Assembly (NCBI RefSeq): GCF_025698545.1 | Contig: NC_068569.1 | Location: 17,050,001 to 17,114,000 of the forward strand | Direction of reading: 5' to 3' | Length of the DNA: 64,000 bases | From: Gossypium raimondii | Taxonomy: Eukaryota; Streptophyta; Magnoliopsida; Malvales; Malvaceae | Shown: piece after piece, positions 12,256 to 37,053 of the stretch | Layout of the letters: every line of letters begins with the position of its first letter | Position numbering within the stretch: position 1 is the stretch's first letter | Notes under the pieces: model-generated | Told to the model about the DNA's origin: nothing | The model's input: the letters and a program-made list of their open reading frames with translations, nothing else | The model's database searches: none | Position numbers and translations under genes: made by a program

Positions 12256-14562
12256 TTATGTCCAACTGAAAGCTATTGGACTACCAACAATGTGTTTTCC
12301 ATCTGACCATTCCAGACGAGCGAAGCTGGTTGTACCAGACGGCATAGAACTCGTTTTGAATGTCACTGTGTAGCTCTTTTTCTCGTATTGTGCTTTGAAG
12401 CTAAGCGTTTCTGGCTCAACTGACATTTTCACTGCTTGAGTCTGTGAATGCAAAGAAACCTTATAAGTTGCCGGGGCACCAACATTAGTAAGGGTCCTAG
12501 TATATTTGATGATGCTTGAGGAGTCAGCACCACCCCTTCTGCCTGACGCAGTTTCCAGAGGAACAGAGAAGGATGGGTAGTTAAAATCTCCCAAGGTGTA
12601 CTTTTTACTTGTCTGGCAAGTGAAGTCTCTGTGGGTAGTGCTCTTAATTTGATTTGGTGTGTAGTTCAAAGCACAAAGAAAACCGAGGTAGTCATCGATA
12701 GTGGCATCGTATACAAGGCCGGGATCAAGGGCTGCAACTGGGTCGGCATGTCCGGCACCATAATCAAACGGCGTTGCTGGTCCTCCAGTGGCAACATCTT
12801 CGATCTTTTGACCAGTTTTATAAGCTGTATAAGCTGTGGTCATGAGGGCAGATTTAATGGCTGCTGGACTCCATTCAGGATGAGCAGCCTTGACAATTGC
12901 AGCTAAGCCACTAACATGGGGGCAAGACATTGATGTGCCTGAAATGATGTTGAAGTTTACATGCCTTGGGTCACTCTGTAATCCGGTCGGACCAACAGCA
13001 GCAGTCCACCCAGCTAGGATATTGACCCCTGGTGCAATAATGTCTGGTTTAAGTATTGCTGGAGTGACTGGGTTTGGACCTCTAGAACTGAATGCTGCAA
13101 CCACTGGTGATGGTTGAACGCCCAACTTTGTGGTTCCAGGACCAATTTTGGCTGTTGGATTACGAGTAGAAGATATATATTTCTTGATTGCATCCCCGGT
13201 CTTCTGTCCAACAGCTGCTGAAGGTAAGAGATGCGCATCGGCGACTAACTCTTCTCCAAAAGTATCTGTGTTTGTCAAAATCATCCCTATGCCACCAGCA
13301 TCCTTCACCACAACACCCTTTTGGACCCTCGCACTACCTCCTCGATCACATACCACTATCTTCCTGGCAACTTTTTCTGGAATCAAACTTCCGGCCATGC
13401 AAAGAGCTCCACCACTTGAATTACTCACATTACCGCCATAAACTAGTGGCACCATGGAATCAGATAACTGCTTTCCATTATAAAGTGTCACACCGGAGTG
13501 TAGTTCACTGTTACCCAGAGTAATAGAGGCAGGGAAATCACGGTCCAATGTTCCGGCACCTACAGTGGTTATCCACGGTGCAACATTTGACAAGCTGCTT
13601 GGCATGGGTCCACCGTTTCCAGCTGAACAAGATACAAAAATTCCATTTGCAGCTGCTGTGAATGCTCCAATGGCAACAGTGTCACTGTAGTACTCCGATA
13701 ACCCTCCCCCGATAGACATCGACAAAACATCCACTCCATCTGCAACAGCTGCATCCATGGCTGCTACAATATCAGAGCCAAAACACCCACCAAGCCAACA
13801 CACCTTGTAGACGGCCACTCGGGCATGTGAAGCCATCCCCCGCGCTGTCCCAGAAGCATACCCTAGCAAGTTAGCAGAGGGCACAACTGACCCTGCAGCT
13901 GTAGTTGCTGTGTGAGTTCCATGTCCATCATCATCTCTCGGGGACCTTGACTCCATCGTTTCATCAATAGGCCCGAACGCAACTTCATACCCTTTTGAAA
14001 AGAACTTGGCTCCAATTAGTTTCCTGTTGCAGCTCGATGCACTGAAGTTTTTCCCCACCTGGCACTCGCCTTTCCAGCGTGATGGTACTGGTCCAAGTCC
14101 CGAATCATCGAAACTTTTCAGCTCGGGCCAAACTCCGGTGTCCAATACGCCAACAATCACTTCACCCATTGAATCAGAGGTGGGGAAGAGAGTAGTGCTC
14201 TTTCCTAACCCGAGGAACTCTGGCGTTCTAGTTGTGTGCAGTTCATATATCACCTCAGGTAAAACAGAGAGAATTCCAGGTTGTTCTCCTAGTGCTTCAG
14301 CTTCCTCAGTCGTTAGCATCGTCGAGTAGCCATGGACTACGTTTTCATATCTGTAAAGCACGGATGCTGAGTCTGAGACAGATTTTAAAGATGTATCATA
14401 CCAGAGGGCATGATCAGTGAAAGTTTCTGGCATGTTGGACTTGTCCACGTGAACAATATAAGTCCTTTTAGCTTTCTGGATCTTTTCTTCTGCTGCAATA
14501 CATACATAATACAAACTCAGAAATAGAAAGATTTCTACTAGTTTGAACTTCAGCGACTTCAT
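12256..14562 (-). CDS. Subtilisin-like protease, SBT1 type (SBT1.7/ARA12-like)
   Basis: A single uninterrupted frame of 768 residues, which is normal for the mostly intronless SBT1 group. Order of parts: signal peptide about 1-24; I9 inhibitor prodomain about 33-110, with the usual junction at HTTRTP (109-114); S8 catalytic domain with Asp141 (VLDTGVWPE), His214 (DDGHGTHT), oxyanion Asn316 (CSAGNGGP) and Ser544 (GTSMSCPH); a protease-associated insertion about 370-455; C-terminal fibronectin-III-like domain about 650-768 ending GSPIAFSWT. All catalytic residues are present, so it should be active. It closely follows Arabidopsis ARA12 in the stretches I can recall. Family members are secreted to the cell wall and act on wall enzymes or peptide precursors. 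The exact orthologue is not decided. Confidence 0.96.
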   Translation of the reverse strand: MKSLKFKLVEIFLFLSLYYVCIAAEEKIQKAKRTYIVHVDKSNMPETFTDHALWYDTSLKSVSDSASVLYRYENVVHGYSTMLTTEEAEALGEQPGILSVLPEVIYELHTTRTPEFLGLGKSTTLFPTSDSMGEVIVGVLDTGVWPELKSFDDSGLGPVPSRWKGECQVGKNFSASSCNRKLIGAKFFSKGYEVAFGPIDETMESRSPRDDDGHGTHTATTAAGSVVPSANLLGYASGTARGMASHARVAVYKVCWLGGCFGSDIVAAMDAAVADGVDVLSMSIGGGLSEYYSDTVAIGAFTAAANGIFVSCSAGNGGPMPSSLSNVAPWITTVGAGTLDRDFPASITLGNSELHSGVTLYNGKQLSDSMVPLVYGGNVSNSSGGALCMAGSLIPEKVARKIVVCDRGGSARVQKGVVVKDAGGIGMILTNTDTFGEELVADAHLLPSAAVGQKTGDAIKKYISSTRNPTAKIGPGTTKLGVQPSPVVAAFSSRGPNPVTPAILKPDIIAPGVNILAGWTAAVGPTGLQSDPRHVNFNIISGTSMSCPHVSGLAAIVKAAHPEWSPAAIKSALMTTAYTAYKTGQKIEDVATGGPATPFDYGAGHADPVAALDPGLVYDATIDDYLGFLCALNYTPNQIKSTTHRDFTCQTSKKYTLGDFNYPSFSVPLETASGRRGGADSSSIIKYTRTLTNVGAPATYKVSLHSQTQAVKMSVEPETLSFKAQYEKKSYTVTFKTSSMPSGTTSFARLEWSDGKHIVGSPIAFSWT

Positions 14563-23236: not shown

Positions 23237-24301
23237 CGGGAAGAACAAAAAAAAATTAAATTCAAAATATTTAAAATAAATAATTTAATAGTGTAATTTT
23301 TTTTAGTTTTTTAATAAGAATTTTATTTGACATGAAAAATATTTTTAAAATAAAGCAGCTACATTAGATATAACATATGTTACTTTTTTAACCATAAATA
23401 GGGATAATATATGATGCTTTATAAGTGCATAAGTTTCATGCACCATCGGTAAATAATAACATGTACATCATCATTATAAATAAAACAACAGACATCGGAG
23501 GATTTATGAATAAATATTAATAACTCTATTTAAATATAATTAAATAATAGTTAATTATGAATAAATGCTAAAATCTTAAAATCTAAACAAGGTACCCTAA
23601 ATCTTTAAACCAAGATCCTAAATCAAAGAGTTATTCATATTTATTTATAATAGTTATGATTAATGTTTAATTATATTTAAATAAAATTATTAGTATTTAC
23701 TTATAAGCCTTCTATATTTTTTTGTTTAATTTAATGATGATGTGTCATGTTATTATTCGTTGATGGTGCATGAGATTTATGTATTGACTATGCATAAAAT
23801 ATTATTCCATGCATAAATAAATACTGATGACTTAATGTATTCCGATGATGGTGCATAAAATTTATGCATTTTGCATCAAATATTATCTCAAAACATTAGA
23901 TATTAAATTAATTTTTTTGTTTAATTTCACAGACGAGTTGATATCTACTTAATTCATTATATCAAACTAAGAGGGAGGGTTTGCTGTAAGGATGATCACA
24001 CGCCGAAAATGCACTGTGAGCTGTGGTCATTCAAATTGGTCTCATCACCAGAACCAGTTGAGTACAATTCGGTTCATATCACACCTCTCTATGGCCAAGG
24101 CCACCACAATACATAGCCTGTTTGTTTTATGTATATATAGATGCTCCTTCGAAACGGTGCCAACGCGTTCGTTAAGCTGCGTACTTTGCATGAGCTTCTA
24201 AATGAACTCTCTTTTTTTAACCATTTTTTCTCTTCTTTTCAATTAACTCTTTTTCTGGAGCATTTTCTTACTTATTTTTATGATTAATTTGTTGTGTAGT
24301 C
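23237..24301. other. AT-rich spacer and promoter of the glycine-rich protein gene
   Basis: 23240-23930 is very AT-rich with diverged repeated phrases ('aaatttatgca', 'taaatattatctc') and no gene. The last 300 bp are the promoter and leader of the next gene. Confidence 0.5.
24132..24139 (+). promoter_or_regulatory. Candidate TATA box of the glycine-rich protein gene
   Basis: TATATATA in 'atgtatatatagatgc', 163 bp before the start codon; it would give a leader of about 130 nt. Confidence 0.5.
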
Positions 24302-24994
24302 ATGGAAAGAAGTAGTGCGATATCTTGGGGATGGGTTTGGTTTTGTTTGTGTTTGTGGTTTTGTTCAAGTTGTGTGGTTGAAGCTAAGCGGGAAGGGAGG
24401 TTTTCGAGTGATGTGAGTCGTAGGATGATAGACATGGGATTAAGACACAGTCCTGCTGAAGCCTTCGGCCATGCAGTGACTACAGATAGTGGTTATGGAG
24501 AATGCCCTGGTGGTGGTGTAGGCAATAAGGGATGTGCAGGCAATGGTGGTGGTGGTGGTTTTGGCAGGGGGGGAGGTGTAGGCAATGGTGGTGGTGGTGG
24601 TGGTGGTGGTGGTTTTGGCAGGGGGGGAGGTGTAGGCAATGGTGGTCTTGGTGGAGGCTTCGGCAGAGGGGGAGGTATAGGCAATGGTGGAACCGGGGCT
24701 TATGGCGGTGCGGGAGGTGTAGGAAATGGTGGCTTTGGTGGTGGTATGGGCCAAGGTGGTGGTGGTGATGGTGGTTATGGCCCAGGGAGTGGGTTTGGGG
24801 GTGGAGGTGGAGGTGGAGGGGACGGTGGTGGCTACGGGTATGGCAATGTAGGCGGTGGAGGAGGAGGAGGCTGGGCAAGAAACGGTGATGGAAAGGGGTA
24901 TGGCGGTGGGTGGGGATATGGTTCCCCAGGTGGAGGAAAAGGTGGCAGATATGGTTCTTCTGCTTCTACGTCTCAAAAGGACCATCCACGGTAA
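24302..24994 (+). CDS. Secreted glycine-rich protein (cell-wall type)
   Basis: One exon, 230 residues. Residues 1-28 form a signal peptide (Trp- and Cys-rich hydrophobic core, cut likely after VVEA). Residues 29-65 are a non-repetitive head (KREGRFSSDVSRRMIDMGLRH is its core). From about 68 on the protein is almost wholly glycine in units such as GGGFGRGGGVGNGG, alternating with GGYG and GWARNGDGKGYGGGWGYG. It ends in a short polar tail (SSASTSQKDHPR). This matches the class of glycine-rich wall structural proteins, which are held in the wall by Tyr and Gly-rich repeats. The GGT/GGA codon arrays make the opposite strand look open in long His/Thr/Pro-rich frames, which are shadows. No RNA-binding or oleosin domain is present. 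Exact subfamily is unknown. Confidence 0.88.
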   Translation: MERSSAISWGWVWFCLCLWFCSSCVVEAKREGRFSSDVSRRMIDMGLRHSPAEAFGHAVTTDSGYGECPGGGVGNKGCAGNGGGGGFGRGGGVGNGGGGGGGGGFGRGGGVGNGGLGGGFGRGGGIGNGGTGAYGGAGGVGNGGFGGGMGQGGGGDGGYGPGSGFGGGGGGGGDGGGYGYGNVGGGGGGGWARNGDGKGYGGGWGYGSPGGGKGGRYGSSASTSQKDHPR

Positions 24995-34290: not shown

Positions 34291-35032
34291 TTCTGCAACT
34301 CTATTTGCTTCCCTAATTTTCATTAGGGCTATGGCGAATCCATCTATGTCTGAGAGAAAGCAAGCAAACGATGAGGTGTGTAACAGAGAAACCAAAGTGC
34401 ACGGCAACTGGCTCAAAACAAATGCTAAAAAGGGTTTCCGAGACACGAACGTACGTGGCGAATGGCTCGCGTTCCCAGCAAACATTTTTTGTTTTTTGTT
34501 TTACCGCATTGATGTCTTCATTCATTTCTCACAATGACACTGTTCCCTCCCATGCATAAATCAATGGCATTTAATCCTTTTCTGCATCCCTACAGCCATG
34601 AGAGATCAGACAATGAAACTCACATGCCTTCTTTTATTATTTCACTTACCCCACCATTAAAGTTCCAAACTTTTTTACATTATATATTTTTTATATTATC
34701 AAGCACACTGCATATTCAAAGCCTCAAAGGCATGGCATGGGCCGCCCTTAGGCACTAGAGACATAGTTACTAGCCACCTTTCTTCATTGCCTTATCTCCA
34801 CGGATTTTCCGGTCGACTTTGTTTGAAGTTGCTCCATTTTGGGGGTGACGAAAGCTGGATTCCATTTTTTTTTTTGTCTTTAAATATATTTTGGTGGCTG
34901 GAAAATAGTTTCATGCGCTGACTCGGTTGCTGCATAAAAGGCATTTTTTCCAGGGTGTAATTGTAGTTGGGAAAAATCAACTCTTTGTTCGGAGGGGGAC
35001 TCATCAATTCATCTGCCAATAACACTGGCATT
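34291..35032. other. Spacer and promoter of the peptide-precursor gene
   Basis: No gene. TATA candidates are TTTAAATATAT at 34880-34890 and CATAAAAG at 34933-34940, the second about 95 bp before the start codon. Confidence 0.4.
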
Positions 35033-36419
35033 ATGAAGGTTCCTGGGATTTGGGTTTTCTTCTTTGTGATCGGGACAGCTTTGTTCGTCTTTGCCTTCAG
35101 CAGCTCCTCCATTCCTGGTAATGTTTTACCTCGTACTAGTTCATTTCTCTTCTGTTAATTGGCCTACATAACCATCAAGACAAAATTCCTGTGTTTGTTT
35201 TCATTACTGGAATTCGGCTAATAGCTGCATTGGAAGATGGCTTAAGTTATAGTTAATGCAGCTTCTTAACATTATTTATCTGTTAATGATCTGACTGATC
35301 TTATCAAAAGCACTCTCTAGCTACCACTACCTACATTTGAAATTTATTAAACTTTTGTTTTTAAGAAATTTAGAAGATTTAAAAATATAAGTTAAATGGT
35401 TAAAATTTTTTGTATTAAATTTAAATTCATTACAATATCAATTGCCAATAAATTTAAATTAATTTTAATAATGTAAATAATTGGGTTTATGTTTTTGAAA
35501 TGGGAAAAGAAAATAAAAATAAAATTCAAAATACAACAAACCAAAAACTTAAGTTTAACTTTTCTTTTGTGCAATTATATTTGAGATGTTGATTGTTTAG
35601 TCCATAAACAATGAACCTTCAATCTACAACTCTGGTAAACTGCACATGGCTCGTTGCTATTTAAAGAATTAAATGACCTCACTGCATGCTATTTCTTGTT
35701 ATATAAGTTTGTAGTGTCAATAATTTTGTTACCTTCAAAGAAGAAAAAGGTTAATAATTTCGGTCAACCGTCTCAATTCTCAAGCTGTCTTTTACAGAGA
35801 TTTGTTTTGGATCTTCATTCTTTGGGTTTAAATAAATAATTTAGTGATCTATTTCAATCGTATTTATAACTAGTTGATCAATAATTGCAGGCTTTGGTTG
35901 GCCCATATCTAAATCATGCCAATAAAATGATGTAGCTTAAAATTGCGGTTTTGCATGTTAAAAAGTAAATGCATGACGTTAGTAAATCAAGTTAAATAGC
36001 AGCAACCAGATACATGTCACTGTTGGAATCAATCATTATTACATGTTTAATAGTGACCAGCTTCTTAAATGTCAGGTATGGATTTGCAGCATGTTGATGG
36101 TACGAGTATGAGTGAAACAAGTAGAAAGCTGAAGGTATACACATTCACTACATGCATGGCCACAATCTGCAAAGAGAACCCTTTTCTTTCGTTTCCGATT
36201 TTGAGACATTTTCTCATCTGAAATTTGCAGGGGAGTGGATACAGTCCAAGCAATGAAAAGAGGAGCAATGTGGATGTGGATGATTACGATCCTATTGATC
36301 CAGTTCCAAGCTCCAAAGCATCCATAAAACCTGGTCCTATTGAGCATGGTACTCCTCTTATTCCCTACATCCCAAAACCCTCACCTCCAGATCATCCCAA
36401 AATTGGTGGTTCCACTTAG
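35033..36419 (+). CDS. Secreted peptide precursor resembling TWS1 (sulfated GSO1/GSO2 ligand family)
   Basis: Three exons, 35033-35117, 36076-36134 and 36231-36419, give 110 residues. Residues 1-24 are a strong signal peptide (IWVFFFVIGTALFVFAF). After a variable middle comes the acidic DVDDYDP at 63-69, an ideal context for tyrosine sulfation at Tyr67, then KASIKPGPIEH (77-87) followed by GTPLIPYIPKP (88-98) and a short tail. From memory, Arabidopsis TWS1, the embryo-made peptide sulfated by TPST and cut by the endosperm subtilase ALE1 after a His before Gly, has this same end. By that model the mature peptide here would run from Asp66 to His87. TWS1 signals through GSO1/GSO2 to check embryo cuticle integrity. 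The start is the only Met giving a signal peptide. Intron 1 is long (958 bp). If not TWS1, it is still a small secreted DY-type peptide precursor. Confidence 0.72.
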
Positions 36420-37053
36420 CCATCCAAAAAAATCTTCTGAAGAACATGCGAATGTAATATCTGTATCGTACCTCGTGTTTTAACCAGCTTTGTTCTCTGA
36501 ATCCCGTCTATTCAATAACTTCAAGTTGCCTATATGTATGCAGCTTATGCTTGTGTTGAATCTGTTTGGCATTGGCCTTGTATCCTGAATATCACTTCTT
36601 TTAAGTTAATTTGATTGCCATTTGTATTGGTTTTCCTTCATATCATCAAATCCTTGATCTCCAAACCCATCAATTATCATAAAATTCATAGCTGAAGTGC
36701 CAATTTCTTTCATGACCCCAGCAGCTTAATGAAACACACAGAAGGGTCATGATAAAAAGAGTTTGTGAAAGCGACTGCTTTCATTTGGTCCCCTTTCCTT
36801 TGGTTATCTATGCCTTATGGAAAGGGGTAGAGGAGATATCATAATCACCAAAGCAATGGGACCGAAGAAAGCTAGCTCATTTATCCTGCCCATTTTGCTT
36901 CAACTACCATGTGATAGAGTTTGAGAACGTTGCTTGAAAATGGATTAGTTACTTTGATTACAATGACATGTTGATTGGCTTCCCCATCCAGCATGGTTTA
37001 ATGCAAAACCAGTTTGTTTTTGCTTGACTGGTTTTGTAGTAAATGGTGGTTCA
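36420..37053. other. Downstream spacer of the peptide gene
   Basis: No protein gene seen. It includes the foldback at 36777-36872. Confidence 0.5.
36777..36872 (+). ncRNA. Foldback, candidate small-RNA (miRNA-like) precursor
   Basis: The arm 36777-36804 ('gctttcatttggtccccttt', then 'cctttggt') pairs with 36845-36872 ('accaaagcaatgggaccgaa', then 'gaaagc') over about 28 bp with few mismatches and two single-base bulges. The loop itself folds: TATCT (36805-36809) pairs AGATA (36834-36838) and CCTT pairs AAGG. Size and asymmetric mismatches are as in plant miRNA precursors. I do not recognise a known mature miRNA, and the strand is not certain. Confidence 0.35.

Follow-up and report, generated by a model that had tools for sequence, protein, structure and literature searches.

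A duplicated gene of the cotton Gossypium raimondii that is very probably a TWISTED SEED1 orthologue

The locus and its gene model

The window, meaning the whole stretch of DNA that was analyzed, comprises 64,000 nucleotides of the Gossypium raimondii genome (NCBI RefSeq assembly GCF_025698545.1, contig NC_068569.1, positions 17,050,001 to 17,114,000 of the forward strand), on the contig referred to here as C5. It carries a small three-exon gene that resembles TWISTED SEED1 (TWS1), and a second copy of this gene is located on contig C6. The features of the window are listed below, with positions counted from its first letter and with a slash marking a cut between two residues.

12256-14562, minus strand: S8 subtilase gene, an intact single exon that encodes 768 amino acids and includes the motifs DTG, HGTH, and GTSM; its distance from TWS1 is about 20 kb
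24284-24994, plus strand: glycine-rich open frame of 236 amino acids that begins with a hydrophobic segment and matches nothing in Pfam at E<=0.001
34560-34661, plus strand: conserved non-coding block upstream of TWS1, 77% identical over 107 columns to the C6 copy (positions 2392-2498 of the C6 stretch L004)
35033-35117, plus strand: exon 1, with the ATG, the hydrophobic signal peptide MKVPGIWVFFFVIGTALFVFAFSSSSIP, and the first base of a Gly codon, closed by a GT donor; the homologous C6 exon has 88 nt
35118-36075, plus strand: intron 1, 958 bp
36076-36134, plus strand: exon 2, a pro-region ending in SRKLK, with AG/GT borders; the homologous C6 exon has 62 nt
36231-36419, plus strand: exon 3, which encodes the spacer, peptide, and tail and contains the stop codon; it matches C6:2019933-2020079 in tblastn (E 1.3e-15)
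36282-36347, plus strand: predicted mature peptide DYDPIDPVPSSKASIKPGPIEH, residues 66-87, aligned to the published Arabidopsis peptide, with candidate sulfation site Tyr67 in DVDDYDP
36348-36416, plus strand: C-terminal tail GTPLIPYIPKPSPPDHPKIGGST, 23 residues, expected to be removed by a cut at His87/Gly88 (published cut PGPIEH/GTPLNP)

Spliced translation of the coding sequence (85 + 59 + 189 nt = 333 nt) gives 110 amino acids and a stop codon (MKVPG...GGST), with histidines at residues 34, 87, and 103 and tyrosines at residues 52, 67, and 94. The exon coordinates, frame, and 110-residue product given in an earlier note on this DNA were thereby reproduced letter for letter. All introns are of the GT-AG type (donors GTAATG and GTATAC; acceptors GTCAG and TGCAG), and both donors match six of nine consensus positions. 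Without splicing, the frame from the ATG runs into a stop after 41 residues, and skipping of exon 2 at the listed splice sites leaves 274 nt that are out of frame. Nine two-exon alternatives can be drawn on paper, and in the best 8 of 9, ranked by donor, the donor matches at most four of nine consensus positions. Unlike these alternatives, the three-exon structure proposed in the note is backed by the C6 copy, which also has an exon resembling exon 2 and has matching exon phases. The signal peptide that the note had described coincides with a hydropathy peak: the best 15-residue mean is 2.68 (residues 8-22), and no stretch that begins beyond residue 30 exceeds 0.09.

The conserved block upstream of both copies is a candidate regulatory sequence, possibly a shared promoter element. 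The pattern GCATTWAATCC also occurs upstream of both copies (window 34567-34577; L004 2328-2338). It is one base off GCATTWAATGC, the motif of epidermal HD-ZIP IV factors. Its chance expectation is 0.33 and 0.03, respectively (found in 23 of 100 and 5 of 200 shuffles), and it provides weak evidence because the pattern was chosen after the sites had been seen and because the two sites do not align with each other.

Farther away in the genome, clusters of terpene-synthase matches are located at C5:54.03-54.31 Mb and C11:5.94-6.24 Mb. One exon at C5:54.05 Mb is identical at 73 of 76 positions to delta-cadinene synthase XC1 (PDB 3g4d), a cotton enzyme; the next enzyme among the matches listed has 53 of 76.

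The peptide, its cut sites, and the CIF relatives

In Arabidopsis, the TWS1 precursor (AtTWS1; AT5G01075) has 81 residues, and the sequence of its mature peptide has been published. The subtilases ALE1 and SBT1.8 cut this precursor at His54/Gly55 (PGPIEH/GTPLNP), and SBT1.8 also makes the N-terminal cut at Glu31/Asp32 (MKVGLE/DYNFPV) (PMC11534595, PMC13082318). The Asn at P3' has been suggested as a contributor to SBT1.8 specificity (PMC13082318). The end of the window product, DYDPIDPVPSSKASIKPGPIEH/GTPLIP, matches the published Arabidopsis sequence DYNFPVDPTPTTKASIKPGPIEH/GTPLNP. The core KASIKPGPIEH, which ends in His, is identical at 11 of 11 positions; it is followed by the site His87/Gly88, GTPLIP, and the remainder of the 23-residue tail. 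The C-terminal block that the note had likened to that of Arabidopsis TWS1 agrees with both the published peptide and the ALE1/SBT1.8 site, and KASIKPGPIEH/GTPL is identical. An Asp-Tyr sulfation motif (DVDDYDP, candidate site Tyr67) is present at the start of the mature peptide, and a signal peptide and a C-terminal extension are further features shared with AtTWS1.

This likeness exceeds what a proline-rich composition would give by chance. Against a 35-residue Arabidopsis TWS1 stretch taken from two reviews (PMC11534595, PMC13082318), the window product scores 126, and the best of 2000 query shuffles scores 59. In a search of the 751-Mb genome at E<=10, the same query found two places (two candidates, both scored), namely C6 (9.8e-11) and the window (2.4e-8). 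The window product has no match in Pfam or in PDB, as would be the case for a chance proline-rich open frame that happens to resemble TWS1. However, such an origin is exceedingly improbable in view of the E-value of 2.4e-8 with the Arabidopsis stretch, the conserved paralogue, the splice sites, and the bias toward synonymous change in the peptide.

The N-terminal side of the peptide differs from that of AtTWS1. The presumed cut in the window copy reads VDVD/DYDP, so that Asp occupies both P1 and P3', positions that are Glu and Asn, respectively, in the Glu/Asp-Tyr-Asn site of SBT1.8. Moreover, the window copy has one codon fewer beside the candidate sulfation Tyr, which shortens the distance from Tyr to the peptide core by one residue (DY-DP, compared with DYNFP in Arabidopsis and DYRHR in C6). 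The missing codon and the changes at P1 and P3' suggest that N-terminal processing by SBT1.8 may differ in the window copy, in which this cut may be less efficient or may depend on a different enzyme. The two cotton products also differ from AtTWS1 in having 110 rather than 81 residues; this length was treated as a property of the Arabidopsis protein and was not counted as defining.

The CIF peptides share with TWS1 an N-terminal DY, prolines, a C-terminal Asn or His, and, in Arabidopsis, a common receptor pair (PMC11534595, PMC13082318). The alignment with TWS1 and the CIFs that the note had called for separates them: the window gene scores 94 with the TWS1 mature peptide, compared with 19, 20, 31, and 30 for CIF1 to CIF4, respectively. 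CIF1 and CIF2 end in RPPFKLIPN directly at the stop, whereas the window product continues into its 23-residue tail; the start DYG.W.P.P and the end PVPH or PIPH that characterize CIF3 and CIF4 (scores of 31 and 30) are absent from it. CIF-type genes of this genome map to loci of their own. Those on C3 and C13 encode CIF1/2-like peptides whose final residues are PPFKLIPN (KPPFKLIPN in full), with no tail before the stop, and the CIF3/4-like gene at C6:345241-345309 ends in PVPHAA, so that its tail consists of AA only. The E-values of these CIF1/2-like and CIF3/4-like matches (0.005, 0.023, and 0.051) are weak due to the short queries, and the assignments rest on motifs. Judged from these sequences, a long tail distinguishes TWS1 from the other CIF-type genes found in the genome.

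A second copy on C6 and constraint between the copies

When the last 51 residues of the window product were compared with the genome, two places were found (two candidates, both scored): the window itself and C6:2019933-2020079 (E 1.3e-15). With exons of 88, 62, and 183 nt, the C6 gene shows phases as in the window, a corresponding stop, and a product of 110 residues that ends in VDLEDYRHRIDPVPSSKASIKPGPIEHGTPLNPYIPKPPSPPNHPKSDNGST. It is closer to the Arabidopsis stretch than the window copy is (score 141 vs. 126), and GTPLNP and LE/DY are both kept.

The surroundings of the two genes are also related. Among the 728 open reading frames of the window, those with matches in 120 kb of C6 (E<1e-5) lie at about 26.9-27.4, 36.1-36.4, 49.3-50.8, 51.2-53.9, and 62.3-63.3 kb, and their order is the same on C6. 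The matches at 49.3-50.8 and 51.2-53.9 kb may belong to one QWRF-family gene, which leaves about three collinear genes besides TWS1. Open reading frames located before 26.9 kb, including the subtilase, have no match in this 120-kb region at the same threshold. The Ks value of the TWS1 pair is 0.52, and those of three exons from two neighboring genes are 0.56 (QWRF exon) and 0.63 and 1.04 (two exons of a LOB-domain gene). Taken together, comparison of the two regions indicates that the window and C6 TWS1 genes are a pair duplicated by segmental duplication, which probably stems from a whole-genome event. In Arabidopsis, subtilases process TWS1 (PMC11534595, PMC13082318), and the window subtilase was considered as a possible processing enzyme of the window precursor. 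Among the genome matches found for it (59 of 219 candidates scored), the nearest are on C3 (80%) and C11 (68%). Since it has no match in the 120 kb of C6, its closeness of 20 kb to TWS1 may be due to chance.

At the nucleotide level, the main blastn match between the copies spans 36011-36424 and ends just past the stop, with one 26-bp match further down; in intron 1, blastn similarity is confined to the ~64 bp that precede the acceptor (78%) and a single 24-bp piece. At the protein level, 69 of 105 aligned residues are identical, with ten gapped columns. This identity is distributed unevenly: 15 of 29 residues in the signal peptide exon, 9 of 19 in exon 2, 6 of 12 in the spacer, 20 of 22 in the peptide, and 19 of 23 in the tail. 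The peptide core from IDP to IEH is identical at all 18 positions. In 5000 runs of a neutral simulation, as few amino acid changes as observed were reached 20 times for the peptide, 273 times for the tail, 205 times for the spacer, 2905 times for exon 2, and 3198 times for the signal peptide. The peptide, with a Ka/Ks of 0.040/0.57, is under selection. In comparison, exon 2 outside SRKLK is nearly unconstrained. The SRKLK at the end of exon 2 (36120-36134) is kept in both copies, unlike most of this exon, and might be a further basic cleavage site.

The note had held the tail to be as well preserved as the peptide. By identity this is roughly so (19/23 vs. 20/22, Fisher p = 0.67), but the Ka/Ks values indicate weaker constraint on the tail (0.105/0.35) than on the peptide (0.040/0.57). 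One explanation for the conservation of the tail would be a second function in its own right, such as that of a wall-binding proline-rich segment, a protease docking site, or a second peptide, rather than merely that of the mask suggested in the note. The tail is more conserved than the other non-peptide parts (19/23 vs. 30/60, Fisher p = 0.012, or 0.0097 with gaps counted as mismatches), the corresponding stop in both copies and the end of the blastn match just after it point in the same direction, and the two CIF1/2-like genes of the genome have no such tail, the CIF3/4-like gene having AA only. However, the signal is weak because it comes from only two sequences and because 273 of 5000 neutral runs reach the observed conservation; in addition, the comparison with the Arabidopsis tail spans GTPLNP only. 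The conservation of the tail between the copies is therefore suggestive only, and a function of its own is a tentative possibility that we consider less probable than a role in processing. In the preferred reading, the tail would most likely be the sequence that the subtilase recognizes on the prime side, and it would block the C-terminus of the peptide until it is cut off; its removal is expected from the published processing step at His/Gly.

The differences between the copies may alternatively reflect decay or specialization of the window gene, with C6 keeping the ancestral embryo role and the window copy having lost efficient N-terminal processing or having been taken up in another tissue, such as ovule epidermis or fiber. 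The greater similarity of C6 to Arabidopsis, together with the missing codon and the Asp at P1 in the window copy, favors this scenario, and so does the published cotton gene described below, which is on A05 and raised in fiber and would fit the C5 gene, provided that the contigs are numbered like the chromosomes (PMC10179096). On the other hand, the frame, the peptide core, and most of the tail are kept in the window copy, which is thus not pseudogene-like. On balance, we regard decay or specialization as possible but doubtful.

Cotton TWS1 genes and the proposed pathway

Cotton TWS1 has entered the literature before. A study of fiber elongation lists the TWISTED SEED gene GbTWS1 (Gbar_A05G020690; Gh_A05G1812) and also a cadinene synthase gene (Gbar_D05G037750), and GbTWS1 was among 42 genes raised in G. 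barbadense relative to G. hirsutum (PMC10179096). Together with the near match to delta-cadinene synthase on C5, these identifiers are consistent with C5 as chromosome 5 of a D-genome cotton; such cottons have 13 chromosomes, and the genome matches of this analysis fell on C1, on C3 to C13, and on two small contigs. Described as a homologue of AtTWS1, GbTWS1 was overexpressed in Arabidopsis, where dark-grown hypocotyls became longer and trichomes only slightly longer (PMC10179096). In contrast to the sulfated-ligand reading presented here, section 2.3 of that paper presents it as a small protein with a speculated effect on the endoplasmic reticulum, and the label of a sulfated ligand is not used in that section (PMC10179096). 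TWS genes have also been catalogued in Pogostemon. The expectation in the note that TWS1 is usually missed by annotation does not hold here, given the gene identifier and overexpression of the cotton gene and the Pogostemon catalogue. The chromosome number of GbTWS1 agrees with contig C5, and the window gene is probably its counterpart; this assignment to the window copy rather than to the C6 copy draws on the published description and the chromosome number.

The gene model, the TWS1-type peptide with its His/Gly site, a tail specific to TWS1, selection acting on the peptide, and the presence of another copy with the same architecture are directly established. From the match of peptide and cut site, the C6 pair, the conservation of peptide and tail, and the separate CIF loci, we conclude that the window gene is very probably a TWS1 orthologue, one of a duplicated pair in this Malvaceae genome, that would act through steps of the Arabidopsis type. 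As such, it is an ordinary further member of a known family, of which cotton and Pogostemon members have already been named. Pattern scans of a genome-contig collection (111 matching stretches) and of viral contigs (15 matching stretches), neither of which was meant for plants, returned no TWS1 relative. No paper on a cotton TWS1 duplicate pair or on tail conservation was found in the literature covered, which excluded most subscription papers. The new findings are that the gene is duplicated, that the window copy is altered in its N-terminal cleavage region, and that the constraint measured on the tail is weak.

The Arabidopsis pathway proceeds through secretion, sulfation, release by subtilases, perception by GSO1/2 with SERKs, and completion of the cuticle (reviews including PMC11534595 and PMC13082318). 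By analogy, the cotton precursor would be secreted and sulfated at Tyr67 by TPST, and subtilases of the ALE1/SBT1.8 kind would cut it at His87/Gly88 and before Asp66-Tyr67. The freed 22-residue peptide would then bind GSO1/GSO2 with SERK co-receptors, and the receptor signal would lead surface cells to complete their cuticle. A bolder variant is a division of roles after whole-genome duplication, in which C6 encodes the embryo signal of the Arabidopsis type, the window copy, with its shorter Tyr spacing and changed N-terminal cut site, encodes a barrier signal for ovule epidermis or fiber, and the tail, which has no counterpart in the CIF1-4-type genes of the genome, is conserved for a function of its own and is not waste; we consider this combination unlikely.

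Under the preferred reading as a TWS1 orthologue, the window gene ties a cotton fiber candidate gene to the pathway in which a sulfated peptide directs the sealing of the embryo surface. The two copies form a natural pair of precursors that differ in the N-terminal cleavage region and have the His/Gly site and most of the tail in common, so that both the role of the tail and the specificity of SBT1.8 can be tested directly.
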